From IMG/VR virus record IMGVR_UViG_3300009184_000044, positions 1-64,000 of that record: a DNA stretch of 64,000 bases; one strand, 5' to 3'. The notes under the pieces were generated by a model, which made no database searches, was not told where the DNA came from, and was given only the letters and a program-made list of their open reading frames with translations. The DNA is from a virus. Numbering within the stretch: position 1 is the stretch's first letter; each line of letters begins with the position of its first letter. Positions 10,126 through 59,508 of the stretch are shown here, piece by piece. The position numbers and the translations under genes were made by a program.

Positions 10126-13100
10126 ATGGCAGTAGTCGGTGAAGCAAGAATTACCGTTGTCGCCGACACTACCGGCGTAAAAGAGCAAATTCGTAGAGGT
10201 TTTCGTGGTGCTGCCGCTGAGGCAGAGACTGCTGCTAATGACACATCTAAAGCTTTCAATAAAGGACTGAATAAAAGTCTAGGTGAAGGTGCTCGCGGAA
10301 TGAGTAAATTCCAAAGAGAATCTAAGCAACTAGCTAGCAGTTTCCACGCAGCTATCCGTAGTAGTTATAAACTCCAAGCTGGTATTGGAGCATTGATTCC
10401 AACTTTATCCGCTGTTGGCGGAGGGTTGTTGGCTCTTATTGGAAACTTGGCTGGTGCCGCATCTGCCGGTATAGCACTAGTTGGCATGATGGCTCAGCTA
10501 AAAATTGCAAGCCTAGTCGGTAAGCAAGCTTTTAGTGGGGTAATGCAAGCTGTCAAGGCTGGCGGTACAGCTGCTGGCGGCACTACTAAAACTATTAGAG
10601 AACTTAAAGAAGAAATGCAGCAACTTGCTTTCTCTGCTGAAGAGGCTGCTCTTAGTGAAGAAAAAGCTGCCATGGGGTTGGAAGAAGCTAGGAAAAAACT
10701 TGCTGCGGTCCAGAATCTGCCGCCAAACAACTCAGCTAGGCGTGAGGCCGAACTTGCATATAAAGAAGCTGACCTTGCTTATAGAAAAGCAAAAGATAAA
10801 AATGCTGACCTTCAAGAGCAAATAGCTAACCCTAAGAAAAAGAAAAGTGGCGGTGCAGGAGCCGACCCATATAAAGATTTAACTAAGACACAGAAGGCGT
10901 TTGCTCAATATCTAGTTAGCGTACAGCCTCGAATGAAGGAGCTAAGGGAGGCTGCTGCCTCAAGCTTCCTGCCCGAACTCACTAAACAAATGCAAACCAT
11001 GTTTAAGGGTGGCTTCTTTCAAATGCTCGTTAAGGGGTTTGGAGATGTTAGCAAGGGGCTAGCCAAAGCAACTGGGGGATTTGCAGGAAGTCTTTTTGAC
11101 CCACAAACTAAAGGTAACTTAGGCGAATTTTTTAAGAATAGCGGTACAACCGTTGGAACTCTAGGTAGCACTTTAGGTAAAGCTTTTGGCGGGTTCTTAA
11201 CTTTAATGCGCGCTGTTCAGCCTTTAATTAGTAAATTTAGTCTGTTTTTAAATTCAAAAGCCGACAGCTTTGGAAAAAATATGCAAGGCAATTTTGCCAA
11301 TATTATGCAATTTTTTAGAGATGCCGGAGATGCTGCTGCTGGATGGGGGTCAATCCTAGGTAAAATCTTTGAAAAATTCAAGGGGATGATTAAAGCTAAC
11401 GTTGGACCTGGAACTGGCGGGCAGCTTCTCCTTGACTACTTCAAGCAAGGAACAGACGGATTCCGTGGTTTAGATGGTGCTGCTGGGGAGTTTGCTCGTA
11501 AACAGCACTTCCTAGCTGCTGCTACAAACCTAAAAGCAATTTTAGATAGCGTTAGTAAAATATTTGGTTTTATGTCTGACCTAGGTACTGACCCATCTGT
11601 TGCTAGTTTTTGGAGTATTCTTTCTGAACTAGAGGGGCCGTTATCAGAAATTTTTGCTTCTATTCAGGGTTCTAGCGATGAATTAGCTCGTATGCTAGTT
11701 GCTATTTTAGAGATAGTAGCCTCATTCACTGACTCTGGTCAGTTAAATGCTTACATGAGTATTCTTACAGCTATTTTGAAAACTATAGTTGGCATTATTA
11801 ATGTTTTTAAACCTTTAATTCAAGCAATGGGGCCACTAGTCGGTACTGTTGGAGCTTTAGTTACTACAATGCTTCTTCTATCTAAAGCAACAAAAATTGC
11901 CTATGGAACTTATATGATTTTTAATAAAGTTATGATGTTCTTTACATTCCTGTCAAATGCTCAGAGAATGGCAACTATGGGTAACGTTGTTGCAACCAGC
12001 TTACTAACTCGAACTAAAGCCGCTTTAGTAGCCATGACTACCAAAGAGGGCATAAAAACAATGTTTAATACAATTAAACTTGGAATAGAAGCTATTGCAA
12101 AATATGCAAGCGCTTCTGCCTCTATTGCAATGGGTGGAGCAGCCCAGGTTGCTGCAGTTGGTACAGGAGAGCTTGCTATTGCAGTAAATGCAGCGATTTG
12201 GCCTCTAACACTTATTGTTGCAGCTATTGCCTTAGTTGTAGTTGGAATTATTGCTCTTGTTGGTTGGATGAATCAAATTAAAGCCGACAACATTAAAAAA
12301 GCTAGCAAAGAAATCAATAAAGAATTTGATAACACCAGAGGTAAAATTATTGGTGCTGCTGATGCTCAGCGTATGTGGACTGCATCTCTTCTGGCAGTTG
12401 GCGACGAACAGAAGGGTGGAATCAGAGACATTAAGGACATGGGTAAAGCTCTTAATGCTACTGGTGTTGCTTATGGTAGGGGTGGTACAGGGGCAAGATA
12501 CTACTCTAGAGAAACATATAATGCTAGGGAAGTCATGGATACATACATGACAAGCCTAGCTAAACTAGCTAAAAAGAATCTTCCGGAGGCTCAGCGTCAA
12601 TTCCGTAATTTGGTTGTTTCTAGCGGAATGAACCGACAGGCAACTGAACTTGCAATTACTTCTAATGAAGAGATGGTTAAGTCTCTAGAAAAGCAAGCTA
12701 AAGCAATGGGTGATACCATTATGAATGCTGACGGTACGGTCAATGCTATGAAGGCTGTTGACTATGCTATTGGTGAAGGCTCTTATGTCCGACAAAAAGC
12801 AAGACTAGAGCAACAAAAGTTTGCTGAAACATTTAAGAATGCTGCTAAATCATTTATTGATACAAATGATGCTATGCAAAAAGCAACGGATGAAAAAGGT
12901 AAGTTTAGTTTAACTAAGTATTTGGACAATCTAAAGACCCAGACTGGTGCTCTTACCAACTGGAGAACTAATATCACTAAGCTTAATAGCTTATTCAAGG
13001 ATAAAAAAGCACTTCAAGGTATTATTGCTCAAGGCTCTGCCGGTGCTGATTTAGTTCAGTCTCTAGTTAGTGGTGGTGCAGCTGCCGTTGCTCAGTATAC

Positions 13101-27373: not shown

Positions 27374-27502
27374 ATGTTTGTAATTTTAAAAATAACTACT
27401 AATGAGGTGGATGAATTTATTGTATATAATAAACTAACTAATTTAGAGGCTGCTCGATACTCAACTTACGATGAGGCTTTCAAAGACCTTCTATCTAGAT
27501 AG
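27374..27502 (+). CDS. Small unknown protein at the end of the tail operon
   Basis: A 42-residue ORF that starts with FVILKITTNEVDEFIVYNK and ends in the acidic/aromatic YDEAFKDLLSR. It lies 16 bases after the fibre stop and its 3' end overlaps the opposing WhiB gene by 8 bases. The Shine-Dalgarno is weak. The coding-like composition and placement support it moderately. The function is unknown. Confidence 0.45.
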   Translation: MFVILKITTNEVDEFIVYNKLTNLEAARYSTYDEAFKDLLSR

Positions 27503-28052
27503 TTTTCTTTTTACTAGCAGCTTTAGCATCTTTAGCTGCTTGCTTGGCTTTATTTTTTTCTCTAATCTTTTGATTTTTAATCTTATCTCGCTCAGCTTTA
27601 GCTAATCTTTCAGCTAACCAAGCGTGATAAGCATCTACAGCATTTGCACTAGTTCTACTCTGCCATTGAAATTTACAACTAGAGCATTCAACTACACGCA
27701 TAGTCGACCAACGACCTCCGGTTGGACGCTTTACTGTTTTAGTCTTTAGTTTTATTGTTGGTGATGCACAGTAAGCACAGATAGGATACTTACCTCTACG
27801 CATTTCTTGACCTTCCCAGTTAATAGAAAGTGCTCTTCGCATTTCTCCCTGGTCTAATCCGCCCCAAACTCCATACATTTGTTTTTCCTCTAAAGCACTC
27901 TTGACGCAGTCTTTTCTCACGGGACAGGTAAAACATAAACTTTTGGCTTGCTCTTGTTCATACTTTTTATTAGAAAAAAAGAAGTCCATTTTGTCTCTAT
28001 TTTTTAGTTTTCCGCACTCGGCATCTTCATACCATTCAGGATTGGTAATCAC
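27495..28052 (-). CDS. WhiB-family regulator with extra zinc-ribbon and basic tail
   Basis: The N-terminal half is a WhiB domain: C13, C40-x-x-C43 and C49 as iron-sulfur ligands, then the GVWGGLD turn. Residues about 90-140 carry two CxxC pairs (ICAYC and CSSC) like a zinc ribbon, and the last 40 residues are Lys/Ala-rich. WhiB proteins are actinobacterial and act with the main sigma factor; phage versions are known to alter host transcription. The extra zinc ribbon and basic tail are unusual and could bind nucleic acid directly. It is the last gene of the minus-strand replication operon, coupled to the previous gene through an ATGA overlap. Confidence 0.85.
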   Translation of the reverse strand: MITNPEWYEDAECGKLKNRDKMDFFFSNKKYEQEQAKSLCFTCPVRKDCVKSALEEKQMYGVWGGLDQGEMRRALSINWEGQEMRRGKYPICAYCASPTIKLKTKTVKRPTGGRWSTMRVVECSSCKFQWQSRTSANAVDAYHAWLAERLAKAERDKIKNQKIREKNKAKQAAKDAKAASKKKTI

Positions 28053-42346: not shown

Positions 42347-43117
42347 ATGAAAGTTTTTATTGCAACCCCAATGTACGGTGGCATGGCAAAGAGCGTCTAT
42401 ATTGCAGGTCTTTCTGATTTGATTAAAGAGCTTTCTGCCAGAGGGCACAGCGTTTCTCATACATCTATTACAAACGAAAGTCTAATAACTCGTGCAAGAA
42501 GCACTCTTGCAAATGAATTTATGAAGACCGATTTTGATGCTTTGCTTTTTATTGATGCAGACCATGGTTTTTCTGCAGAAGACGTTGTAGCAATGGTTGA
42601 GTCTGGTAAAGATTTAATTGGTGCTCCGTACCCTATGAAGGCAATTAACTGGGAAAATGTGCGAAAAGCAGCTCTTGCTGGTAAAGAGAATCTAGAAATA
42701 TACTCCGGTCTTTTTGCTATTAACTTTTTAGATGAAGAGCAAACTTTTAAAGCCAACGAGCCTTTTAAAGTAAAAGATGTTGGCACCGGTATGATGTTTA
42801 TTCGTCGAAATGTTTTTGAAAAGATGAAAGAAGTTTGTAGCGCATATAAATACAACACTATTGGCGATAATATACCTTTTGGTCAGGATATGATTGAGTA
42901 TTTTAAGACTATGATTACCCCAGAGCCTGAGAGCATATTGCTATCTGAGGATTATGCTTTCTGCCACATTTGGCGTGAGCTTGGGGGAGAAGTTTGGGCG
43001 GCCCCGTGGGTTCGTATTTCTCACGCGGGAGAATACAACTTTACTGGAATGCTTCTTGCGACTTTAGAAATTAATCAGGTTGATTCTGTAGAAGAACCTA
43101 AAAAGAAGAAAAAATAG
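42347..43117 (+). CDS. GT-A glycosyltransferase-like protein
   Basis: A 256-residue protein beginning VFIATPMYGGMAKSVYIAG, with LLFIDADHGFSAEDVVAMV as the metal and nucleotide-sugar DxD site and GTGMMFIRRNVFEKM followed by LSEDYAFCHIWRELGG as acceptor-side motifs. This is the pattern of family 2-like GT-A enzymes found in many phages. The C-terminus is Lys-rich. It may glycosylate DNA, virion fibres or the host envelope; the target is not visible. The nearby fibre operon with sulfation genes makes virion decoration plausible. Confidence 0.72.
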   Translation: MKVFIATPMYGGMAKSVYIAGLSDLIKELSARGHSVSHTSITNESLITRARSTLANEFMKTDFDALLFIDADHGFSAEDVVAMVESGKDLIGAPYPMKAINWENVRKAALAGKENLEIYSGLFAINFLDEEQTFKANEPFKVKDVGTGMMFIRRNVFEKMKEVCSAYKYNTIGDNIPFGQDMIEYFKTMITPEPESILLSEDYAFCHIWRELGGEVWAAPWVRISHAGEYNFTGMLLATLEINQVDSVEEPKKKKK

Positions 43118-43191: not shown

Positions 43192-43353
43192 ATGTCTGAA
43201 ATTCCTAAAAATAAGTCCAATGTATGCTATGTTTGCAAAGAACGTTTTGTAGTAGATATTTTAGCTCGTTGCTGTGAAATGAAGCATGAAGGTATTGTCT
43301 TTGAGAGACGTCCTGAGCAGGAACCTGGACCTAAACATAAACCTAAACTTTAA
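43192..43353 (+). CDS. Small zinc-finger-like protein
   Basis: A 53-residue ORF: NVCYVCKERF, then ARCCEMKHEG, giving a CxxC...CC-x-x-x-H set able to bind zinc, and a basic Pro-rich tail (EPGPKHKPKL). The short start context has GGAA before the ATG. It converges with and overlaps the opposing DUF2061-like gene by 11 bases. It is probably real; the function is unknown. Confidence 0.55.
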   Translation: MSEIPKNKSNVCYVCKERFVVDILARCCEMKHEGIVFERRPEQEPGPKHKPKL

Positions 43354-43522
43354 CAGCCTTTTTCCAAAGTTTTTCAAATACCCAGTAAGTAAAGATTTTA
43401 AACAAAACCTCTAGCCCTACAATCTGAGCGGCAGTTTCAAACTTATGAGTGACAGTTAAGGCAATTAAAAAAGTTATTAGACTCTGCCAAACTCTGTAAA
43501 TTATAGATTTTAGTAAAATCAT
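43343..43522 (-). CDS. DUF2061-like small membrane protein
   Basis: A 59-residue ORF: MILLKSIIYRVWQSLITFLI, then ALTVTHKF, an AAQIVGLEVLFKIFTYWVFEKLW segment and a basic end. Two membrane helices and the R-x-x-x-S-x-x-T-F-L-I-A and G-x-E-V-x-x-K-x-x-x-Y pattern resemble DUF2061. Its ATG overlaps the stop of the APS kinase fusion (ATGA), so it is translated with it and should belong to the sulfation cassette. Confidence 0.65.
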   Translation of the reverse strand: MILLKSIIYRVWQSLITFLIALTVTHKFETAAQIVGLEVLFKIFTYWVFEKLWKKAVKV

Positions 43523-44265
43523 AGTCCTAATTCTGCACGCTTTTTAGTTGCCGAGATAGCCTGAAGTTCTGGACTTAGTTCTATCTTTTCAATTAAATAG
43601 CCAACGTCACGCCCATAAACGATGTTTGTGATGTTTGGCAAACGCATCTTTAGAGTGTCTGGCTGTTCTGGAATGAACTCAACTACTTGGTGAAAAGTTA
43701 GAGGGTCTTTCTCCGAGGTGTCGTGAGTGTTACGGATGCCGATAAGAACTTGCTTGGTTCTGTTATGTGCTTCTTCTTTTAGGGCTTGATGACCTTCATG
43801 CCATGGTTGATAGCGACCTAGCATTAGTGTTGTTGGAGCAGACCAGTCAAATAAGCCAAACTTACTAATTACCTCGTCGGCCATCTCTTTATCTGACTTC
43901 CATTCGTAAAAAGTGTGGTCAGCATCAATTACAGGAATCCACATAGCGTCGGTGTCAGCAAAACGACTAGAAGCAATAGTGTTCATTACAATTTTGATGT
44001 TTGGGATACCAAAGGCTTTACGAGTCGCTTTGGTCGGACAGATGAAATCAACAATAACGGTATGACCTTGCTTAGATAGCAATCTAGCCATTTCACCTAG
44101 GCGACGAGCATTTTCTGCTCTGTCCTTTTCGCTAAAGCCAAGGTCAGAGTTTAGAGTGGAGCGGACCTCGTCTGCATTGAGGTGAATAGCGTTTAGACGC
44201 TCTTTTAGAGCTTCAGCTAGAGTTGTTTTACCTGAGCCTGGTAGTCCTAGGATTTGAATAATCAT
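43519..44265 (-). CDS. APS kinase fused to a nucleotidyltransferase domain
   Basis: A 248-residue protein. Residues 1-115 match adenylylsulfate kinase: GLPGSGKTT (Walker A), HLNADEVRSTLNSDLGFSEKDRAENARR and VIVDFICPTKATRK (the FISP-like loop). Residues about 140-248 form a cytidylyltransferase-like domain with LMLGRYQPWHEGH (HxGH motif) and ISATKKR near the end. The first part makes PAPS from APS. The second could act like a small ATP sulfurylase or an NMN/glycerol-phosphate-type transferase; at about 110 residues it is far smaller than normal ATP sulfurylase. The gene overlaps both the sulfotransferase and the DUF2061-like genes, so all three are co-translated. Confidence 0.8.
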   Translation of the reverse strand: MIIQILGLPGSGKTTLAEALKERLNAIHLNADEVRSTLNSDLGFSEKDRAENARRLGEMARLLSKQGHTVIVDFICPTKATRKAFGIPNIKIVMNTIASSRFADTDAMWIPVIDADHTFYEWKSDKEMADEVISKFGLFDWSAPTTLMLGRYQPWHEGHQALKEEAHNRTKQVLIGIRNTHDTSEKDPLTFHQVVEFIPEQPDTLKMRLPNITNIVYGRDVGYLIEKIELSPELQAISATKKRAELGL

Positions 44266-45101
44266 TGTAGTTTTGCCTTTGCGTAATTATATATTTCTAA
44301 GTCTAATGCGTTATTAGCGTATATAAGGTCGATGTCGGCCTGTGTGAGCAAGGCTTTTAGGGACTGAGTTGTGTAGGTAGTACCGTCTAAGTCGGTATAG
44401 CTACTAAAATTTACATACGGAGCGTCTGTTTTTGCCATTATTTCTGCGTTTATATCCAAATACTCTTGCTTGATATCTACTTTATGATTGTCAAGAATCC
44501 ACTGAAAAACTTTATCCATAAATTCACTATGTTTTTCAGTAATGCCTAGTATGGTTATTTTATCTACAGTGCTTTTAGCAATTTCTAGAGATGTAGAATC
44601 TTCAAGAAACCAGTCTTTATAGTAATCTTTATACATTTCTGCCCTATTAAGTTCTATTAAGGAACCGTCTTCTCTATAGACAGACACATTATTTATTCTA
44701 AAAGAGTCGTCGTCTATTTGACTAGATAAAAATCTAGTAACTAAATTATTTTTTGAATAGTCAGAATCTTCTAATAAGTAATAACACATTTTTTCATAGA
44801 TTGAATTTAAATTTTTATACGGTTCTTTTTCTTGAAGTTCATTATTCATAAGTAGCCAAATAAAATTACTTACTACCCTGTCTAAGGGCTCTCTAATTAG
44901 GCAAGCACTTTCTATCTCTGGATATTCTGTAAGTGGTTTAATACCAAAATGACCATGAATGTAGGCAAACTTTTTGTAGTCATATATGCCGAATGGTGAG
45001 TATGGGTATGAAAGAATGTTCTTAAGATTAAGTAATCTAGCAATTGTTCTTACTGCTAATCCGCCAGTTTTGGGTATATGTAGCATGTAAAGTGTTTTCA
45101 T
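44262..45101 (-). CDS. PAPS-dependent sulfotransferase
   Basis: A 279-residue protein with LHIPKTGG (residues 7-14, the 5'-phosphosulfate loop) and CLIREPLDRVVSNFIW (about 67-82, the 3'-phosphate site), the hallmark of sulfotransferase family 2-type enzymes. It would transfer sulfate from PAPS to a sugar or protein. It lies 8 bases after the beta-propeller gene of the fibre operon and overlaps the APS kinase gene by 4 bases. Fibre glycans or host surface polysaccharide are likely acceptors. The base composition is more AT-rich than neighbours, which suggests recent acquisition. Confidence 0.82.
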   Translation of the reverse strand: MKTLYMLHIPKTGGLAVRTIARLLNLKNILSYPYSPFGIYDYKKFAYIHGHFGIKPLTEYPEIESACLIREPLDRVVSNFIWLLMNNELQEKEPYKNLNSIYEKMCYYLLEDSDYSKNNLVTRFLSSQIDDDSFRINNVSVYREDGSLIELNRAEMYKDYYKDWFLEDSTSLEIAKSTVDKITILGITEKHSEFMDKVFQWILDNHKVDIKQEYLDINAEIMAKTDAPYVNFSSYTDLDGTTYTTQSLKALLTQADIDLIYANNALDLEIYNYAKAKLQ

Positions 45102-45109
45102 ATTGACTC

Positions 45110-46351
45110 CTAAGTAAATATGTAGTATGAATCAAGAACTGTAGATGTGCTAGTTTGAGTGAAAGTATTAGTAGACCATCCCGCTATAGTTCCAGCAGTA
45201 GGGGAATTTCCATATCCGGATGTTGTTGTAGCAAATGGACTAATGGATGTAGTAGCAGTTGAGGTAGTAGTGTAAGAAACTAATGAAGTTGTCACTGCTG
45301 TTCCACTTGTTGTAACTGGACCCCAAACAACTCCATCTGTCTTAAGTTTTGCTGCTGCAGATATAGAACCGATGTTTACTAAAATATCTCCATCTGATGT
45401 AAGTCTTAGGTTTGAGGCAATTGTTGAGTACACTGAACCAGCAGAAATGCTTCTAGCCCAGTTGAGGGTTCCATCTGAGTTTAGTTTTACTATAGGGCTA
45501 ATATTTGTACTGCTAACTGAACCAGATAAAAAGTAAACATTTCCAGAAGCATCTATATCGAGTAAAGCACTTGCACTCCACTTAGTGTAGTTTCCTCCTG
45601 TGGGGACACTTTTTCTCCAAGTAGCAGTGAGACTGGAGTTAAATTTATACACATATTGACTAGAAACTCCATAAATATTTCCAGAAGCATCCCACTTAAG
45701 TGTTTCATGGGCCCAATTATATACTGCAAGTTTTGTTAAAGTTGGACTAAGTTTAAAGGTACCTGATATATTATAAACCCATACATTTCCGGATGGGTCT
45801 ACTCCTGAAATTCTGTATATCGCATACCCAAGATAGGTGCTGTACGCCATGGAACCATCAGATTTATTTAGAGTAACTACATAGCCGTCATCTGTGTCTT
45901 TTGAAAATGCTGCTTCGTGATTAATTGCTGTTACTAATTGAGTGCTATTTAAAATTAAAATTGGTAGTGGACCATTTTGATTAGCATAAGTTGTTGCTTT
46001 TTTAGACCAAACAACGCTACCATCGCTGAGACTAAGTGCTGTAACTACTGGCATAGCAGATGAATTTATAGTTGAAATGTATATATTTGAAGAATCTATT
46101 GCAAAATATGCGCCTAAACCTGACAACCCTCCATGGGTTTTTGCCCACTGGAAAACTCCATCTTTAGAATATTTATATAGATATCCGCTATTTGAAACAT
46201 AGACATTTCCAGAAGAATCGCTAATAATATCTCTAGCAGCAAAAGTATTACCATTTGCTTCTACTGACCTTGGAAAAACAAAATATTTATTGACAATACC
46301 TACAACAGCACTTTTAAGGCTGCCAATCAATCCAGCAACTGCACCAGACAT
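45110..46351 (-). CDS. Beta-propeller-like fibre-associated protein
   Basis: A 413-residue protein. An N-terminal helix (AVAGLIGSLKSAVVGIVNKYF) is followed by six or so repeats with D-x-SGNVY-V, VYKFN and DG-x-x-W-A-R elements (SDSSGNVYVSN, DPSGNVWVYN, DASGNIYGVS, DASGNVYFLS). This is the signature of PQQ/NHL-type beta-propellers. It ends in a Thr/Ser-rich tail. As part of the fibre operon it could be a receptor-binding head. It shares a base with the fibre gene upstream. The propeller reading is well supported; the ligand is unknown. Confidence 0.68.
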   Translation of the reverse strand: MSGAVAGLIGSLKSAVVGIVNKYFVFPRSVEANGNTFAARDIISDSSGNVYVSNSGYLYKYSKDGVFQWAKTHGGLSGLGAYFAIDSSNIYISTINSSAMPVVTALSLSDGSVVWSKKATTYANQNGPLPILILNSTQLVTAINHEAAFSKDTDDGYVVTLNKSDGSMAYSTYLGYAIYRISGVDPSGNVWVYNISGTFKLSPTLTKLAVYNWAHETLKWDASGNIYGVSSQYVYKFNSSLTATWRKSVPTGGNYTKWSASALLDIDASGNVYFLSGSVSSTNISPIVKLNSDGTLNWARSISAGSVYSTIASNLRLTSDGDILVNIGSISAAAKLKTDGVVWGPVTTSGTAVTTSLVSYTTTSTATTSISPFATTTSGYGNSPTAGTIAGWSTNTFTQTSTSTVLDSYYIFT

Positions 46352-47451
46352 TATGTAAGACCGTTACCGCTAATAATCCAAGAAGTAGAAGTAATTTTTA
46401 CTGCGGTAGCCATACCGTAAGCAGCTAAAGTTCTAGTCCCTGTAGTTCCAGGACCTGCTAGGTACATAGTATCAGTCGTAATTGCAATGCTGACAGATAC
46501 GGTTGCTAAATTTATAAACGTAATTGTTGTACCAATTTGGTAACCAACGCTACCATTTGCAGGAATAGTTATTGTTTGAGAAGCAGTGGTTCCAGAGAAA
46601 TAAATATGCTTGCCGGCATCTGATGCTACAAGTGTATAAGATGCAGTTTTAGCATTCTGTGGCATACCCATAAATCCAGCAGTAGTTGCTGATGTTGTAG
46701 CTACAGCATCTGCTGGAGTAATAGTAGGGGTTGTACCAAATACTAGGGCACCAGAGCCAGTATCATCTGAGATAACAATTGCCAGTTGAGCTGAAGTTGT
46801 AGAAGCAAACTGGCCTAGACCGGTTCCTGTTAAGCCTAGACCTGTGGTCGGGTGGACGTGGTCTGCTCGTGCAGCCGTAGTTGCTGTACCAACTGCTGCA
46901 GTTCCGGATGCAGAAGGAGTTGTTGAACTTAGTCCAGTAATGCTATTGAATGAGGTTCCGCTTATTATTCCTGCAGAAAAAGCTCCCGATGCATCTCTGG
47001 AAACAATTGTTGATGCTGTATTTATATCTGTAGCGTTAGTTGCAATAGAGATAGTGTCGGTGCTTGCTGTACCCGTAATACTTATTCCAGTACCGGCAGT
47101 GAATGTTAAAGTGTCGGTTGTTGATGAGGCTATAGGGTTAGTTCCGGAAGGGACGGAAATGGTACTAAAAGAGTTTGATGCAGAACCGCCACCAACTAAG
47201 CTAGTTCCTACAGATGCAGCACCACTAGTGATGTCAATATAGTATCCACGATTTGTATTTCCAGTTTCAAAAATACGAAGTTGATTTCTAAAAACGTCAA
47301 TTGTTACGCCAGTAGTTAGAGTTGTATTGGTTATTGCTTTAGCGAGGTCAATCTGACCGCCCTCATCACCGACTGAATTAGTTGATTTCAGGAAGCCAGT
47401 GGTAGAGATATCGCCATCAGCGGTTATACCAGTTCTAAAAAATCTAGCCAT
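46351..47451 (-). CDS. Tail fibre protein
   Basis: A 366-residue fibre: start ARFFRTGITADGDISTTGFL, a Thr/Ser/Gly-rich shaft, the common fibre motif TTAARADHVHPTTG, and a C-terminal domain (LVASDAGKHIYFSGTTASQTITIPANG) of a type frequent at phage fibre tips. It sits between the large fibre and the propeller gene in one operon. Confidence 0.72.
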   Translation of the reverse strand: MARFFRTGITADGDISTTGFLKSTNSVGDEGGQIDLAKAITNTTLTTGVTIDVFRNQLRIFETGNTNRGYYIDITSGAASVGTSLVGGGSASNSFSTISVPSGTNPIASSTTDTLTFTAGTGISITGTASTDTISIATNATDINTASTIVSRDASGAFSAGIISGTSFNSITGLSSTTPSASGTAAVGTATTAARADHVHPTTGLGLTGTGLGQFASTTSAQLAIVISDDTGSGALVFGTTPTITPADAVATTSATTAGFMGMPQNAKTASYTLVASDAGKHIYFSGTTASQTITIPANGSVGYQIGTTITFINLATVSVSIAITTDTMYLAGPGTTGTRTLAAYGMATAVKITSTSWIISGNGLT

Positions 47452-47460
47452 AGACTAATC

Positions 47461-50400
47461 CTAGCCGATAATTACGTATCGATATCCAGTTAGTGATATG
47501 CCGGTAGGGGAGAATGTAGTAATTCCGCTTGCTGTTGTAACATCAACTTCAACTTGAACGCCTCCTGAGTCGAATAGCTGAGCAACTACACCATTAGTAA
47601 ACCCGTGGTTTACGGTAACTGCTGTGCCGGAAGTGACTGTAGTAAAGGTACCTGTTACTTTACGAGCAATAGTAGGAGTTACTGCAGCAGCATAAGTGGT
47701 GACTGTTGTATCAGCGCTTACAGGAAGGTCGGAGTAAGCAGCTTGGCTGATTGCAGTACCGTTACCTTTTAGGAGACCCGTTACGCTAGTAGTAAGTGTA
47801 AGTGCTGGTGTTGCACCTCCGCTAGAGCTACCTGTAAAGCCATTAGCAGAGACAACTGATACAGCAGTTACTGTTCCTGTTCCGTAAGCAACAGTATCTG
47901 TAGAAAGGGTTCCATCAGTGGCAATCTTTACAAATCCAGCAGTAGGTCCAGCAGCAACAACGGTAGGAAGTTTAACTGTTCCAGTTATAGTAGTTGTAAC
48001 ACTAGATTGACCAATAGAAATTGCAGCAGGTGCTGCGTAAGCGTTAGAAGTTCCAGCAGCATTTCTAGTACCGATTAAGATGCTTCCAGCAGTCGAGCTA
48101 GTTCCAGTTGCATAACCAACATCTACAAGTACGTTACCTGATGTTGCAGCAACACCTGTACCTGTTGCAATACCTGTACCTATAATTACGTTTGCAGTTA
48201 CTGCAGTGGCACCGGATGTGACGTTTATACTTCTAAATGTTGCGGTAGCTGTGTCTATTGTCAGCTGTGAACCGCTAATTGTTACACCAGCAGTGTTTGC
48301 TGTTCCAATAGAGATTGTACCTTTAGTGGAACCATTTCCAGCATTAATTGTAACGTTTCCACCGGTACCGGCTGTAATGTTAGCATCACCAGCGGTAATA
48401 GCTACGTTACCACCTGTTGTTGCAAGAGTACCCACGGTTGCAGTACCAGCAAGAATATTAACGTTACCAGCGGTAGCGGTTGAGCCAGCTCCAGTAGCGC
48501 TACCACCTCTAACGTTTACTGTTCCACCGGTACCTGTTGTTGTTGAAGTTGTGTTACCTGCGTTGACGTTAACGGAGAATCCGTTACCGCTTACAGCTGC
48601 TGCTGAGACAGTAAGAGTACCTCCTGATGCAACAAACATATTTGTGTTGGATGTGGTGCTAACAGTTGGAGCAGAAAGAATGGTTGTAGTAAGAGTTCCC
48701 GTACTTGGTAGATAACTTAGTGGCAAAGTTACAGCGTTTAGAAGTAAGTTTTTTGAACCTGTACCGCTAGTAGTAAACACAGGGTAGTATGTAGTGGCGG
48801 CGGTAGTTTCAGTAGCGGTGACGGTAGTTGAGTTACCAGCGTTAGTTGCGTTGGTAACAGTGCTTGCACCAATTGCAGTTGCAATTTCTGCACCTGTAGC
48901 AATAGCTAGAGTTCCGTTAGTAGAACTTGTTTTTAGTAGACCATCGGTAGCAAAGGCAGCAGCACCAAGTTTTACAGTTCCATTAATTGTTGTGGTTGGT
49001 GTTCCAGCATTAGTACCAATTATGATGGTTGTTGTGCTACCTGTAGCACCAGCGGTACCAATGTTTATTGCCTTGGTACCTGAAGACATAGCACCAGTAC
49101 CAATATTTATTGCACCAGTTGTGAAAGCAGTTCCTGTAGCTATGTTCACATTTCCAGTGGTTAATGCAGAAGCTACGTTTAAATCACCTGTTGTGCTGTT
49201 ATTAAAAAAGTTAAGACTTTGATTAACAGCCGACATATTCAAGTTGAAGTTGTTGCTACCAAGAATTATTGCACCAGTTGGAAGTAGCTGAGTAGCGTAT
49301 AAATATCCGCTGTAATTAAGTCTTGTAGTACCGGATGGTGCTGTGGTTGAACCATCAAATTGACCAGTGGTTGGTGTTGTGCCGTTATAGACTACAAATG
49401 ATGAAGAAGCTGAACCTGCTGTTACACCAACGCTTCCAGGTAATGTTCCAGAGGAAACGTTAGATGCGTTTAGAGATGTAAGAGTTGCACCGGAACCAAC
49501 AAAACTGGTTGCAGTAAGAGCACCAGTAGAAGCAACATAGCTAATTGCGTTAGCGTTAGAGTTTTGAGCTAGAGCCTTGAATCCAGTTGTAACGCTTGGA
49601 GACATTACAAGATAGTAAGTTCCTGAGACGGTTTCAGTTACGTTTGCGTTATTAGTGTTTGTAACGGCGTTAGTGCTAATAAGAGTTGTAACATCTGTAC
49701 CAGATGCAGCAGTAAAAGCACCTGTACCGTTACCCTTAAGGATTCCTGTTAGGGTGCTAGCTCCTGTACCACCGTTAGCAACAGGTAATACTCCACCAGT
49801 TGTTCCAGCGAACTGAGCCCAAGTGATATTGTCGGTACCAATTTTAATGGCGTTGGTTGGGGTAGTAGCAGTACCTGTGGAGTTCATTGCCCATGTGCTA
49901 CCACCGTTTACAGTTCCAGATGTGACATAAGCTAGGTCTCCTGGGAATACTTCACCAGCAACGCTGTTGTCGAAGTCAGTTGCACGGGTAAGTGTAACGT
50001 TTGCTCCAGGAGTTCCAGTTACTGTATAGATACCGTTTTGCTTTTGGTCAGTCTGGTTTTTTAAAAGAACTCGGTTAGCTGCAGCTAAAGTTACACCATC
50101 AATTTGAGCGGTTGTAAATACAAATGTTGCACCTTGACCCGTACCTTGTGAGGCATCAGAAGTACCGGCTGTGTAGGTACCTGTAATAGCTGCAGTAGAT
50201 GCAACTAGAACAGCAGCGTGTACGTTGAATCCTGCTTGAGAGTTTGCAATAGATGTATCTACATAGGTAGTTGTTGCAAGGGTACCTGTTGCTGCAGGAA
50301 GAGTGAGTGTTCCTGAAGCAGTAGTATTTGCTACTAATGTGGTACTTCCACTAGTTCCTTGGAATACTGCTCCAGTGCTTTGAATAGTAGGAGAGGTAAA

Positions 50401-50967
50401 AGTTTTGTTAGTTAGTGTCTGGGAACCAGTTAGGGTTGCCACGGTTGAGTCAATTGCAATAGTTACAGCTGCGGAACCTGTGTATGGACTGGAGCCTGTG
50501 CTAGCTTGAAGGCCTGTTCCGATAGTTAGTCCGAAAGGGTTTGCAGCAGAGATAGTTATGTTTGAGGCACCTGTAAAGCCAACCCCATTTATATTTGCTC
50601 CAGGAGAAAGAGCAGCGGCTGTGGTAGCAGATGTGGCAGTATCTGCGTTACCTTGAAGAGCACCAACAAAAAGTGTTGATGTGATTGAGGTCATACCTGC
50701 AAGGGTAGTTACAGCACCAGAAGAGTTCCCAATTGTGTACTGAGTTGTACCTACATATAATGAACTACCGCCTGTAGCAACAGTCTGCCAAGCTGAACCG
50801 TTATAGACTCTTAGGGTGTTTGCAGTTGAGTCAAACTGTAGTCGTCCACCTACTAGGTTGGCAGCACCAGTGATAGCGTCTATTGAGCTGCCCGATAGTC
50901 TACCTACAACAAAGTTTTGTAGTTCATTGACATTTAGGTTAATTGGGGTAAGAAAATTACGAGCCAT
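47461..50967 (-). CDS. Large tail fibre protein
   Basis: A 1168-residue fibre. The N-terminus (ARNFLTPINLNVNELQNFV, LQFDSTANTLRVYNGSAW) is a virion-attachment type. The middle includes RVLLKNQTDQKQNGIYTVTG, shared with the giant fibre at 20833, and VLPVANGGTGASTLTGILKG, a common fibre motif. The shaft has many short repeats such as INIGTGAMSSGTKAINIGT and NVNILAGTATVGTL. The C-terminus (TVNHGFTNGVVAQLFDSGG) is a compact tip domain. It is AT-poorer than the main tail operon and antisense to it. Confidence 0.78.
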   Translation of the reverse strand: MARNFLTPINLNVNELQNFVVGRLSGSSIDAITGAANLVGGRLQFDSTANTLRVYNGSAWQTVATGGSSLYVGTTQYTIGNSSGAVTTLAGMTSITSTLFVGALQGNADTATSATTAAALSPGANINGVGFTGASNITISAANPFGLTIGTGLQASTGSSPYTGSAAVTIAIDSTVATLTGSQTLTNKTFTSPTIQSTGAVFQGTSGSTTLVANTTASGTLTLPAATGTLATTTYVDTSIANSQAGFNVHAAVLVASTAAITGTYTAGTSDASQGTGQGATFVFTTAQIDGVTLAAANRVLLKNQTDQKQNGIYTVTGTPGANVTLTRATDFDNSVAGEVFPGDLAYVTSGTVNGGSTWAMNSTGTATTPTNAIKIGTDNITWAQFAGTTGGVLPVANGGTGASTLTGILKGNGTGAFTAASGTDVTTLISTNAVTNTNNANVTETVSGTYYLVMSPSVTTGFKALAQNSNANAISYVASTGALTATSFVGSGATLTSLNASNVSSGTLPGSVGVTAGSASSSFVVYNGTTPTTGQFDGSTTAPSGTTRLNYSGYLYATQLLPTGAIILGSNNFNLNMSAVNQSLNFFNNSTTGDLNVASALTTGNVNIATGTAFTTGAINIGTGAMSSGTKAINIGTAGATGSTTTIIIGTNAGTPTTTINGTVKLGAAAFATDGLLKTSSTNGTLAIATGAEIATAIGASTVTNATNAGNSTTVTATETTAATTYYPVFTTSGTGSKNLLLNAVTLPLSYLPSTGTLTTTILSAPTVSTTSNTNMFVASGGTLTVSAAAVSGNGFSVNVNAGNTTSTTTGTGGTVNVRGGSATGAGSTATAGNVNILAGTATVGTLATTGGNVAITAGDANITAGTGGNVTINAGNGSTKGTISIGTANTAGVTISGSQLTIDTATATFRSINVTSGATAVTANVIIGTGIATGTGVAATSGNVLVDVGYATGTSSTAGSILIGTRNAAGTSNAYAAPAAISIGQSSVTTTITGTVKLPTVVAAGPTAGFVKIATDGTLSTDTVAYGTGTVTAVSVVSANGFTGSSSGGATPALTLTTSVTGLLKGNGTAISQAAYSDLPVSADTTVTTYAAAVTPTIARKVTGTFTTVTSGTAVTVNHGFTNGVVAQLFDSGGVQVEVDVTTASGITTFSPTGISLTGYRYVIIG

Positions 50968-50975
50968 TTAGGTTC

Positions 50976-51425
50976 CTAAGATAGGTAAGCAAAACCGGTA
51001 AAAGCTTCGCTAAAGGTTACGGTAAGGGAGTCATTATCGATATATTTAATGGTACCTTCTACGGTAAAGTCTGCAGTATCTGTTGTTGTGATGCTTGGTT
51101 TGTAGCCCAAATTGTGAGTTATATTCCATGTATATGATACCGCATTTTGAGTATGCTTATAAAAGACGGGTTGCGTCTCTCCGGGTATTCCTTGAGGGCC
51201 TTGCGGTCCTGTAGGTCCGGTTGGGCCTGTGCTTCCGGCTGAGCCGGTTGGTCCGGTTGGGCCTGTGCTTCCGGCTGAGCCGGTTGGTCCGGTTGGGCCT
51301 GGAATTCCTTGAGGACCACCCTGAGAGACCTCGACGTGAGTAATCTGCTCTTGAACAATAATCTTGTTCTGGTCTTGTTTATCAACAATAATTCTTAGGG
51401 GTTGGTCATCGCTATCTAGTGGCAC
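50976..51425 (-). CDS. Collagen-like virion protein
   Basis: A 149-residue protein with about 15 Gly-X-Y triplets at residues 40-90 ([18 protein letters not shown]...), flanked by an N-terminal beta part ([22 protein letters not shown]) and a C-terminal tip ([19 protein letters not shown]). It should form a triple-helical stalk in the second fibre operon. It shares one base with the upstream gene. The collagen segment carries a 36-base tandem repeat. Confidence 0.75.
51214..51300 (-). repeat. 36-base tandem repeat in the collagen-like gene
   Basis: Two identical 36-base units (51214-51249 and 51250-51285) plus 15 bases of a third. Each encodes four Gly-X-Y triplets ([12 protein letters not shown]). 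The copy number could change by slippage and alter stalk length. Confidence 0.85.
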
Positions 51426-51796
51426 TATCGAGTCACCTCAGCTTTTACAACAAAATTTCCTTCTACAAGTCGGGTCACTTCACCACCTGCAGATACCAGC
51501 TCTAAGTCATAAACATATTGACCTGGAGTTAGACCAGCAGTTGTCGCAGCAGATAATATAAGAGTTACCTGACCTTTAGTTTCCGCGGTAGTTCCAAGAG
51601 TAATTTTACCATTGACTGTGGTAAGGTCTATAATTGTAGAAGTAGAAGTTACACTTGAACGAACTTGCATACGAGCTGTATATCCATTTAGGTCGATGGC
51701 TTTTTTGGCAGAGTCAGTCCAAGTCAAGGTACGACGAAATGTGGCACCCTGATTACACAGGAAGTTGTGAAGTCCGGCTGGCCCGCAGCAGCTCAT
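51425..51796 (-). CDS. BppU-like baseplate/fibre anchor protein
   Basis: A 123-residue protein: [29 protein letters not shown], then [24 protein letters not shown] and [21 protein letters not shown]. This beta-sandwich pattern resembles the N-terminal domain of baseplate upper proteins (BppU type) that anchor fibres. An odd start (MSCCGPAG) has two Cys. It is the first gene of the second fibre operon. Confidence 0.6.
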
Positions 51797-52255: not shown

Positions 52256-54289
52256 ATGTTTTCATTCAAGTTAAATGAAGAGTTCGTAGCGGAGTATAAG
52301 CAAAAAGAATCACCTTTTGGTTACAAAGATGCCGCTGGCAACTCTGTAGGCGAAATAACTTTCTTACGCACATACTCCCGTAAAAAAGAAGATGGCACCA
52401 AGGAAACTTGGTCAGAAGTTTGTGAGCGTGTTACTAATGGTACATATTCAATCCAGAAAGACCACGCTAAGCAGAACCGTCTGCCATGGTCAGATGCTAA
52501 GGCTGCTGCCTCGGCTAAAGAATTTTTTGACTCTTTATTCCGTCTCAAGTGGTCTCCTCCAGGTCGTGGTCTTTGGGTCATGGGAACTAACATTGTAAAC
52601 GTTCAGAAGAACTCGGCTGCTTTGCAGAACTGTGCTTTTGTGTCTACTTTGGAAATGACCAAAGCAAACCCGGGTAAGCCTTTTGCATTCCTAATGGAAG
52701 CCTCGATGCTGGGTGTGGGTGTGGGCTTTGATGACAAGGGTGCTGATAAGAACTTTGAAATTTATACTCCTGGAGATGTCCAGACTTATGTTATTCCTGA
52801 CACTCGTGAGGGTTGGCAGGAGAGCACTGTTGCTCTAATTAACTCATTCCTAAAAGCAGACCAAGCAAGCCTAGAATTTGATTACAGTGAAATTCGTCTA
52901 TACGGTGCACCTATTGCTACTTTTGGTGGAACTGCGTCTGGACCAGACCCTTTGATTGCTCTACACAACAAAATTCGTGAAATTTTTAATGGTCGTGCGG
53001 GTGAGCTTTTGACTACTATTGATATTGCAGATATTGGTAACCTAATTGGTCGTTGTGTTGTATCTGGAAACGTTCGTCGTTCAGCTGAGCTACTAATTGG
53101 TCGCATTGACGATGACAACTTCCTAAATCTAAAAAACGCTGAAAAGTTCCCTGAGCGTAACTCTTACGACTCCGAGAACCCGGGTTGGGGTTGGATGTCA
53201 AACAACTCAGTAATGGTAAATGTTGGTACTGACTTCTCAAAAATTATTGATGGAATTATCCTTAACGGTGAGCCGGGTGTTATTTGGGAAGATGTGTCTA
53301 AGGCTTATGGTCGTCTAGGCGACCCAATAAACAACAAGGACCACCGAATCATGGGCTACAACCCTTGTGCAGAGCAGAGCCTTGAAAGCTACGAAATGTG
53401 TACTCTTGTTGAGACTTATCTAAACCGCCACGAAAGTAAGGAAGACTACCTTCGCACTTTGAAGTTTGCCTACCTATATGCTAAGACTGTAACTCTTCTA
53501 CCTACTCACTGGGAAGAAACTAATGCTATCATGCAGAGGAACCGCCGTATCGGAACCTCGATGTCTGGTATTGCCAACTTTGCTGACCGCAAGGGTCTTC
53601 CAGAACTTCGTACTTGGATGGACGAGGGCTATGCGGTCGTTAAGAAATATGATGTTACTTACTCTGAGTGGTTAGGTATTCGTGAGTCAATCAAGACTAC
53701 AACTGTAAAACCATCAGGTACTGTATCTATCTTGGCTGGAGAATCTCCGGGCGTTCACTGGACTCCAGGTGGTAAGTTCTTCAACCGTGCAATTCGTTTT
53801 GGTAATGATGACCCTATGTTGACGTTGTTCAAGATGGCTAACTACACTGTTGAGCCTGATGTATCTAACCCTGACCACACAACTGTTGTTTATTTCCCAA
53901 TCAAGTCATTGGCAGAGCGTGCAGAACGAGACGTAACTATTTTTGAGAAGATGGCACTTGCTGCAACTGCTCAGCGTTATTGGTCAGATAACTCTGTGTC
54001 TGTAACTATCTCGTTTGACCCTGAGACAGAAGCTAAGCACGTTGAGTCTGTACTTCATATGTATGATGGTCAGCTAAAAACTGTATCGTTCTTGCCTTCA
54101 GGTAATATGACTTACCCTCAGATGCCTTATACGCAAATTACTGAAGAAGAATATGAAGCGTCAGTGTCAAAACTATTCCCTATCTCTCTTGATGGTATCT
54201 ATCAAGGTCTTGGTGTTGATGCTATTGGCGAAAGTTATTGCGTAACAGATGCATGTGAAATCAAGTTGATTGTAGAAAACCAGAAGTAA
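52256..54289 (+). CDS. Class II (B12-dependent) ribonucleoside-triphosphate reductase
   Basis: A 677-residue monomeric-type RNR. Key motifs are NVQKNSAALQNCAFVST (redox Cys), GNVRRSAELLIG, MGYNPCAEQ (the active-site Cys and Glu in NPCAEQ), TVKPSGTVSILAGESPGVHW, and a C-terminal Cys pair (ESYCVTDAC). The class II reading rests on similarity to Lactobacillus-type RTPR and the absence of an NrdF/NrdB gene nearby. It makes dNTPs for phage DNA and would need host adenosylcobalamin. The start follows AAAGGCGG. Its stop overlaps the NrdH-like start (TAATG). Confidence 0.85.
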   Translation: MFSFKLNEEFVAEYKQKESPFGYKDAAGNSVGEITFLRTYSRKKEDGTKETWSEVCERVTNGTYSIQKDHAKQNRLPWSDAKAAASAKEFFDSLFRLKWSPPGRGLWVMGTNIVNVQKNSAALQNCAFVSTLEMTKANPGKPFAFLMEASMLGVGVGFDDKGADKNFEIYTPGDVQTYVIPDTREGWQESTVALINSFLKADQASLEFDYSEIRLYGAPIATFGGTASGPDPLIALHNKIREIFNGRAGELLTTIDIADIGNLIGRCVVSGNVRRSAELLIGRIDDDNFLNLKNAEKFPERNSYDSENPGWGWMSNNSVMVNVGTDFSKIIDGIILNGEPGVIWEDVSKAYGRLGDPINNKDHRIMGYNPCAEQSLESYEMCTLVETYLNRHESKEDYLRTLKFAYLYAKTVTLLPTHWEETNAIMQRNRRIGTSMSGIANFADRKGLPELRTWMDEGYAVVKKYDVTYSEWLGIRESIKTTTVKPSGTVSILAGESPGVHWTPGGKFFNRAIRFGNDDPMLTLFKMANYTVEPDVSNPDHTTVVYFPIKSLAERAERDVTIFEKMALAATAQRYWSDNSVSVTISFDPETEAKHVESVLHMYDGQLKTVSFLPSGNMTYPQMPYTQITEEEYEASVSKLFPISLDGIYQGLGVDAIGESYCVTDACEIKLIVENQK

Positions 54290-55883: not shown

Positions 55884-56183
55884 GGGGATGACTGGTTTCG
55901 ACAGTTGTCTTGATGTTAGTGAAGCAAGCAGAAACGGCCACGCATTCTTAAAGTGTGGTAAAACAATAAATGCTGAACGTACTTCCGCATTCGCTCTAGC
56001 CGCGTGATTTAATCGCAACGCTTAGGCCCCTGACAAAGCACTAGTTCTAGGTGGGCAGTCAGGTTTTAAATAAATAGAACAACCCTCTCGTAGTGCCCTG
56101 CAATACCGTGGTTGGTAAAACCTAAGCTTGTAGAAGAATAACTGAATGTCAATTGGACCGGGGTTCGATTCCCCGCATCTCCA
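55884..56183 (+). ncRNA. ssrA: tmRNA
   Basis: The 5' end GGGGATGACTGGTTTCGACA and the 3' end with a T-arm (CCGGGGTTCGATTCCCCG) and CATCTCCA are diagnostic. GGGGATG pairs with CATCTCC (one G-U) as the acceptor stem. CCA is not encoded. The tag frame 55972-56004 reads AERTSAFALAA then TGA. The ALAA ending suits proteolysis by ClpXP-type proteases, and FALAA endings occur in actinobacteria. A phage tmRNA would rescue stalled ribosomes during heavy expression. Confidence 0.92.
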
Positions 56184-56241
56184 CGCTTGTAGACAGAGGA
56201 GCGTAAAGCGGTCTACCCGTCCTAGGCAACGGAATCTCCAA

Positions 56242-58848: not shown

Positions 58849-59508
58849 ATGGAAACTCTTGACCCTGGCTTAGCCCTCTTATATGCACGCGTTTCTACGC
58901 AGTTGCAGGTGAATGATGGCGTATCGCTGGATGTACAGGAAAGGCAGTTGATTACAGCTGCTGAGTTCCACGGATTCACTCGTTGGGAAATTATTCGTGA
59001 GGAAGGTCGTTCTGGTAAGAGTATTACTGGTAGACCTGCCCTTACAGCCGCCCTTAGTCGCCTAGAGACTGGTGATGCTCAGGCATTGTTCGTTACTCGT
59101 ATTGACCGCCTAGCTCGTAGCACAACGGACTTCTTGGACATCGTTGATAGGGCAAACAGGAAAAATTGGCGTTTGATTATGCTAGACCTAAATCTAGACA
59201 CTTCTTCTTATCAGGGGCGTTTCGTGGTTACGATTATGTCTGCTTTGGCTGAGATGGAGCGTGGAATCATTTCTGCTCGTCAAAAGGACATCCACAAGGA
59301 TAGACGAGACCGCGGGGTGAAGTGGGGCGTTGATATGGGCCCTAAGAATAAAACTCCTGAAGAAGTAAAGAATAGGGTATACTCCGAACGAAGTCGTGGC
59401 CGCACCTATCGTGATATAGCTAACGGACTGAATGCTGATGGGATATTGGGGCAAAATGGGGGAAAGTGGTACCCGACCACAGTAAAGAATTTGTTGGATA
59501 ACGAGTAA
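58849..59508 (+). CDS. Serine recombinase (resolvase/invertase type)
   Basis: A 219-residue protein. The catalytic domain has ALLYARVSTQLQ (Ser nucleophile in YARVST), FVTRIDRLARST (the R-x-D-R-L-x-R motif) and SALAEMERGIISARQ, followed by the long helix. A C-terminal HTH-like part (SRGRTYRDIANGLNADGI) recognises DNA. It lacks the large zinc-ribbon domain of phage serine integrases. It could invert or resolve DNA, or act as a short integrase. A TAAACT box 6 bases before the ATG suggests a leaderless transcript. Confidence 0.82.
   Translation: METLDPGLALLYARVSTQLQVNDGVSLDVQERQLITAAEFHGFTRWEIIREEGRSGKSITGRPALTAALSRLETGDAQALFVTRIDRLARSTTDFLDIVDRANRKNWRLIMLDLNLDTSSYQGRFVVTIMSALAEMERGIISARQKDIHKDRRDRGVKWGVDMGPKNKTPEEVKNRVYSERSRGRTYRDIANGLNADGILGQNGGKWYPTTVKNLLDNE

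Follow-up and report, generated by a model that had tools for sequence, protein, structure and literature searches.

Gene group between 43343 and 45101 and its fibre-region neighbours

The window, meaning the whole stretch of DNA analysed, covers 64 kb out of a 68,393-base virus record, and its left part encodes portal, major head, tail and tape-measure families. Three adjoining genes on the minus strand, which encode a sulfotransferase (ST), a fusion of a kinase with an HxGH nucleotidyltransferase-like domain (KN) and a small membrane protein, follow a group of fibre genes. The features of the locus are as follows:

44262-45101, minus: sulfotransferase (ST), 279 aa, Sulfotransfer_2-like, under purifying selection
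45060-45080, minus: HIPKTGG motif of the ST, of the 5'-phosphosulfate loop type, from sequence
44868-44894, minus: R70-x7-S78 of the ST, of the PAPS 3'-phosphate site type, from invariance across lineages
43519-44265, minus: KN, kinase and HxGH nucleotidyltransferase-like fusion, 248 aa, phrog_10255
43852-44265, minus: kinase part of KN, residues 1-138, from Foldseek; P-loop GLPGSGKT at 44224-44247
43519-43851, minus: HxGH domain of KN, residues 139-248 and stop, with GRYQPWHEGH, YGRDVGY and ISATKKR, from profile and Foldseek
43343-43522, minus: DUF2061 small membrane protein, 59 aa, PF09834
45110-46351, minus: gene immediately 5' of the ST, 413 aa, in the fibre region; candidate target
46351-50967, minus: two fibre-like proteins of 366 and 1168 aa, rich in GILPVANGGTG-type repeats, the longer being phrog_2647
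50976-51796, minus: collagen-like fibre protein and L-shaped-fibre-assembly-like protein (PF01391; phrog_3304, phrog_1084)

Neighbouring genes of the group overlap by four bases, ST and KN at 44262-44265 and KN and DUF2061 at 43519-43522, and the ST begins eight bases past the stop codon of the fibre-region gene that precedes it. A preliminary description of this DNA had placed three overlapping minus-strand genes between 43343 and 45101 as a continuation of a fibre operon. Its coordinates are exact, the order is kept in relatives, and the motifs it named (HIPKTGG, REPLDRVVSN, GLPGSGKTT, DRAENARR, FICP and HxGH, here HEGH) are all present in the sequences. Pairwise pN/pS values are 0.16 for the ST, 0.07 for KN and 0.16 for DUF2061 when compared with locus L085, and 0.55, 0.15 and 0.13, respectively, when compared with the diverged phage L098. 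These low values (0.07-0.55) indicate purifying selection, so that none of the three genes is a chance open reading frame. Homologues of the 413-aa gene likewise lie upstream of the ST in seven relatives (cluster 19), and L098 encodes a protein similar to its product; Pfam and PHROG profile searches gave no family match for the 413-aa protein. Promoter and terminator scans gave results no better than chance level. Facing the group on the plus strand, at 42347-43117, is a phrog_1574 protein which by eye appears to be small and glycosyltransferase-like.

Families and predicted folds of the sulfotransferase and the fusion protein

The window ST reaches 20.2 bits against Sulfotransfer_2 (PF03567), which is 1.8 bits below the cut-off of 22, while a relative in L001 that is 37% identical to it scores 27.3 bits over positions 11-251 of the 252-position model and passes the cut-off. 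R70 and S78 are invariant across four ST lineages, as is every residue of HIPKTGG except T12, and the R-x7-S spacing is common to seven ST clusters near KN genes. In sulfotransferases this spacing binds the 3'-phosphate of PAPS, the group which distinguishes PAPS from APS. Judged by its sequence, the window ST appears to be a remote member of the Sulfotransfer_2 kindred, having a HIPKTGG start and the R-x7-S expected of a PAPS site, which agrees with the PAPS-type sulfotransferase family proposed in the preliminary description. It stands apart from the family in its score and in having no solved relative by sequence, as the window ST family retrieved nothing from the PDB; a search of annotated phages with the window ST gave no match either.

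KN matches the Pfam family APS_kinase (PF01583) with 75.6 bits at a cut-off of 21.1, but only over positions 4-91 of the 152-position model. The likeness spans the first ~85 residues, which hold the P-loop and the N-terminal substrate block of APS kinase (R35, F44, R49 and N52 of DxxR...GF..DR.EN); the C-terminal part typical of APS kinases is cut down, and in the KN family alignment a short GRFxDTN-type segment stands in its place. The curated apsK equivalog (TIGR00455) gives 79.3 bits, below its cut-off of 138.7, and the match to the phrog_10255 "kinase" runs end to end (3.9e-58, residues 1-247, model 2-229 of 230). An AlphaFold2 model of KN built from 43 viral relatives has a mean pLDDT of 93.5, and the first 49 PDB matches that Foldseek returned for its kinase part are all APS kinases or PAPS synthetases, the best with target-normalised TM-scores up to 0.76. 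The kinase part of KN is thus predicted to have the APS kinase fold, a point on which the preliminary description had made its reading depend. The APS kinase-nucleotidyltransferase fusion which it proposed stands as regards kinase family, fold and HxGH site, with the reservation that the kinase match covers the N-terminal half only.

The HxGH domain of ~105 residues has its best profile match in the NMN adenylyltransferase MJ0541 (5.8e-10). Modelled alone (pLDDT 93.7), it is nearest in Foldseek to NMN and phosphopantetheine adenylyltransferases, with weak E-values of 0.0017 or higher and TM-scores on the query of 0.67-0.68 to 1m8g and 1ej2. GRxQPxHxGH, R178, YGRxVG and SxTxxR are invariant in this domain across the KN family. 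Like NadM-type NMN adenylyltransferases (MJ0541, 1f9a; TIGR01527), it has GRxQPxHxGH, with GRYQPWHEGH aligned to the GRFQPFHxGH-type site of NadM, and a terminal ISxTxxR. Unlike them, it is about 25 residues shorter between the two halves that align with MJ0541, has the invariant R178 and YGRDVGY, and falls far short of a full-length family match to NadM (22.5 bits against a cut-off of 181.2). Judged against the curated cut-offs, KN does not qualify as a standard apsK or as a standard NMNAT.

This kinship with NMN adenylyltransferase is one reason to consider a role of KN in nucleotide or cofactor metabolism, in which a kinase step followed by an adenylyltransferase step would yield an NAD-like or other nucleotide-activated metabolite and the nearness of the ST would reflect shared accessory regions. 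The predicted kinase fold, which is specifically that of APS kinase, and the ~25 residues missing relative to MJ0541 speak against it. The gene neighbourhoods described below bear on both sides of this alternative, which overall is considered unlikely.

The identity of the HxGH domain as an ATP sulfurylase, an activity for which the preliminary description proposed a test, found no support, as ATP sulfurylase (PF01747) is neither among the profile matches of the domain nor among its best 50 structural matches; this identity was rejected on profile and fold, which point to NMN adenylyltransferase instead. The domain does contain a GRD motif, which we take to recall ATP sulfurylase. KN also resembles animal PAPS synthetase (PAPSS) in the order of its parts, a kinase followed by a domain of the HxGH nucleotidyltransferase superfamily, and in its proposed product, but has 248 residues rather than about 600 and an HxGH domain with no detectable relation to ATP sulfurylase. 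A rather doubtful proposal can be built on this, namely that the ~105-residue domain is a minimal ATP sulfurylase which evolved independently; KN would then be a complete 248-residue PAPS synthetase with which phages equip hosts devoid of their own sulfate activation for the sulfation of proteins or virions.

Linkage of ST and KN in other phages

Viral contigs are rich in KN relatives, two scans having confirmed more than 580 matches each. Among cellular sequences there was one full-length match, on a Chitinophagaceae MAG contig; it is the only one in 198 Bacteroidota genomes, whose other matches are nearly all confined to the kinase half. Cultured phages with KN include Stenotrophomonas, Xanthomonas and "Clavibacter" phages. 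Among relatives of the window ST, a fibre-region gene is followed by the ST, then by KN and in nearly all cases by DUF2061 (L084 has a different small gene), and the triad recurs behind fibre-like genes in L098, whose ST is 42% identical. Homologues scattered away from fibre genes, which the preliminary description had named as evidence against its reading, are therefore not what is seen among these relatives.

Of the 157 loci found with KN as bait, 41 have a motif-positive ST no more than 5 kb from KN (31/80 close and 10/77 distant loci; seven R-x7-S ST clusters), a count from which the ST-like cluster LPRTGS (L109 and others), which is devoid of R-x7-S, was left out. In phage records, a Pfam ST match was found in 11/33 KN-positive (6 above cut-off) versus 1/17 KN-negative cases. 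Searches with two Pfam ST families detected no ST in four cultured Casjensviridae phages that carry KN, and DLP_6 carries KN together with a distant ST.

The reverse test used as baits ST genes and control genes (luciferase-like and glycosyltransferase) which were all taken from KN loci, so that ascertainment is alike for ST and controls. In the case of the LPRSGST-type ST, a family unrelated to the window ST and found in another phage group, KN or its kinase half follows directly in 74/79 loci; in the case of the HIPKTAG-type ST, a third family, KN lies downstream in 49/56 loci, mostly one gene away and mostly at 557 bases. The control baits retrieved KN far less often (luciferase-like 22/80, glycosyltransferase 11/78). 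Removal of close copies leaves small counts with some remaining dependence between loci, in which the LPRSGST-type ST has its partner adjacent in 8/11 loci, compared with 5/38 for luciferase-like and 0/19 for glycosyltransferase baits (Fisher p 3e-4 and 3e-5), and the HIPKTAG-type ST has it within the locus in 16/19 cases, compared with 15/38 and 2/19 for the controls (p 0.002 and 1e-5). The pairing of ST and KN is not due to chance. The ST predicts KN well, while a recognisable ST is not required by KN; KN genes that lack one would be explicable by unrecognised PAPS users, by host sulfotransferases or by another function of KN.

The LPRSGST loci further show which part of KN the ST is paired with. 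In 36 of the 74 loci only a short kinase devoid of the HxGH domain is present, which makes the kinase the shared partner of the ST and counts against the cofactor alternative, as does the far more frequent retrieval of KN by ST baits than by control baits. Kinase-only forms directly behind the ST are mostly of 128-186 aa (L180 at 10819-11262, L199, L209 and others); one and the same position is taken in some loci by a kinase that has the HxGH domain and in others by one that lacks it, and a few of the short forms may be cut by contig ends. The gene order here is fibre-like gene, phrog_7759 gene, ST, kinase and lysis-type genes, the last by inspection. In L012 (4148-4999, scanned) and, by sequence similarity, in L016, L056 and L078, the ST is fused to a phrog_7759 N-terminal domain; elsewhere a free-standing phrog_7759 gene lies between the fibre and ST genes.

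Some of the wider surroundings of KN favour the cofactor alternative, as does the lack of a recognisable ST near most KN loci. In T4-like relatives, sequence inspection places KN near SAM synthetase, APRT, PurA, MazG and ThyX genes, and in Casjensviridae it lies near MazG-like and NADAR-like genes. In the Stenotrophomonas phage L089 (5553-5996 and 5989-6729), there is an overlap between KN and a gene with a NADAR-like annotation, which offers a lead for this alternative. Other accessory genes of KN loci (L077, L048, L061 and others) encode Asp/Asn hydroxylase (PF05118) and luciferase-like monooxygenase (PF00296) or, by inspection, tryptophan-halogenase-like and SGNH-like proteins.

The third gene is a genuine member of DUF2061 (PF09834; 46.5 bits, cut-off 23.1, whole model 1-52 of 52), as the preliminary description had supposed; its inclusion there as a member of the sulfation route fares less well, for it is specific to neither ST nor KN. 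DUF2061 lies directly downstream of KN in 60/80 close and 18/77 more distant KN loci, is found in 0/79 LPRSGST-type loci and is present in 50/80 loci of the luciferase bait, only 21 of which also have KN. A search of annotated phages and plasmids gave no match. Literature on cellular DUF2061 concerns the iron response, not sulfur (PMC12442407, PMC3751524). A role as sulfate carrier or required partner is unsupported given its absence from the LPRSGST loci and its frequent occurrence without KN, and DUF2061 is best described simply as a frequent neighbour.

Proposed function, published viral cysC genes and the likely host

What is directly established at this locus are families, predicted folds, motifs, the operon and the conserved co-occurrence; all chemical activities and the target are what we infer from them. 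It appears moderately probable that KN and ST form a sulfation cassette, in which KN supplies PAPS and the ST sulfates a phage product, plausibly a fibre. The kinase domain of KN would 3'-phosphorylate adenosine 5'-phosphosulfate (APS) to PAPS, and the ST would transfer sulfate from PAPS to that product, for which a fibre protein encoded just upstream, or its glycan, is the most plausible candidate. The HxGH domain, whose part is the least certain step, probably contributes to forming the adenylylated substrate (APS) where the host is unable to do so. Linkage of ST and kinase in unrelated ST families, behind fibre-like genes, counts for a sulfation cassette. Against it count the many KN loci devoid of a recognisable ST, the shortened C-terminal part of the kinase, the NMNAT-like HxGH domain, the cyanophage STs that have no kinase, and the fact that all baits come from KN loci, many of which are close relatives.

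These cyanophage sulfotransferases (S-SRM01, S-SKS1 and S-SCSM1) are related to the LPRSGST family but differ in that the genomes of S-SRM01 and S-SKS1 carry no APS-kinase-like gene. In S-SRM01 the ST adjoins a glycosyltransferase and a nucleotide-sugar epimerase, and glycosyltransferases also lie near some KN genes. This raises the somewhat unlikely possibility that PAPS is made for the ST but that the target is a host-surface glycan or a small molecule, serving superinfection exclusion or masking, and not the virion. Sulfotransfer_2 enzymes of known function act mostly on carbohydrates, which would suit such a target. By contrast, the position of the ST directly behind fibre-like genes in several lineages, with fusion to phrog_7759 in some, argues for a product of the phage, as does the kinship of the LPRSGST family, which among solved structures is closest to polyketide-pathway and protein-tyrosine sulfotransferases.

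The viral cysC genes described so far from lakes and oceans have been assigned to sulfate assimilation. In freshwater, 62 phage cysC genes were annotated, found to be strongly transcribed in situ and read as assimilatory (PMC10914622), and viral CysC in hadal sediment was likewise read as sulfate assimilation (PMC9529941). Like KN, these are APS-kinase-like genes borne by aquatic phages, possibly of the same family; unlike them, KN is coupled to sulfotransferases and is not accompanied by a PAPS reductase above cut-off in the phage records searched. On the published reading, KN would be a cysC-type auxiliary metabolic gene boosting assimilatory sulfate reduction of the host. This is very improbable for KN, as it sits with the ST and as a search for PAPS reductase in 50 phage records, of which 33 are KN-positive, gave no match that reached the cut-off; an assimilatory role was rejected on the latter ground. 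As unrelated phages keep the pairing of ST and KN, viral "cysC" genes may instead serve sulfate decoration rather than sulfur assimilation. If a large class of them feeds phage sulfotransferases near fibre genes, their biogeochemical interpretation would be mistaken for this class, and phages would have a further, new way of modifying their products, possibly one that tunes host recognition. Phage cysC (PMC10914622, PMC9529941) and phage sulfotransferases are known already, separately, and the cassette itself is a novel combination of known parts. The earlier claim that such a route is undescribed in actinophages can thus be kept for the linked ST-kinase cassette, of which no published report was found in the open PMC literature (weak evidence of novelty), but not for its parts.

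The host of the window phage is marked as actinobacterial by a WhiB-like protein (27495-28052, minus), recognised by script and by eye, with no profile score, from a single C...CxxC...C match and a GVWGG motif; WhiB-like genes are regarded as an actinophage mark (PMC10202952). The cassette is thus probably carried by a phage of a freshwater actinobacterium, with acI as a candidate host. Genomes of acI actinobacteria are devoid of assimilatory sulfate reduction, the whole pathway being absent (PMC5301498), so that a phage of a host of this kind would need its own PAPS source; together with the WhiB-like protein, this would explain why such a source is phage-borne. It also means that, absent reductases, PAPS would lead nowhere in assimilation. 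Elsewhere in the window, the phage encodes a tmRNA (55884-56184, plus) with the tag peptide AERTSAFALAA and a class II (B12-dependent) ribonucleotide reductase (52256-54289, plus). A serine recombinase with resolvase and recombinase domains (58849-59508, plus) suggests a possible temperate or mobile history.
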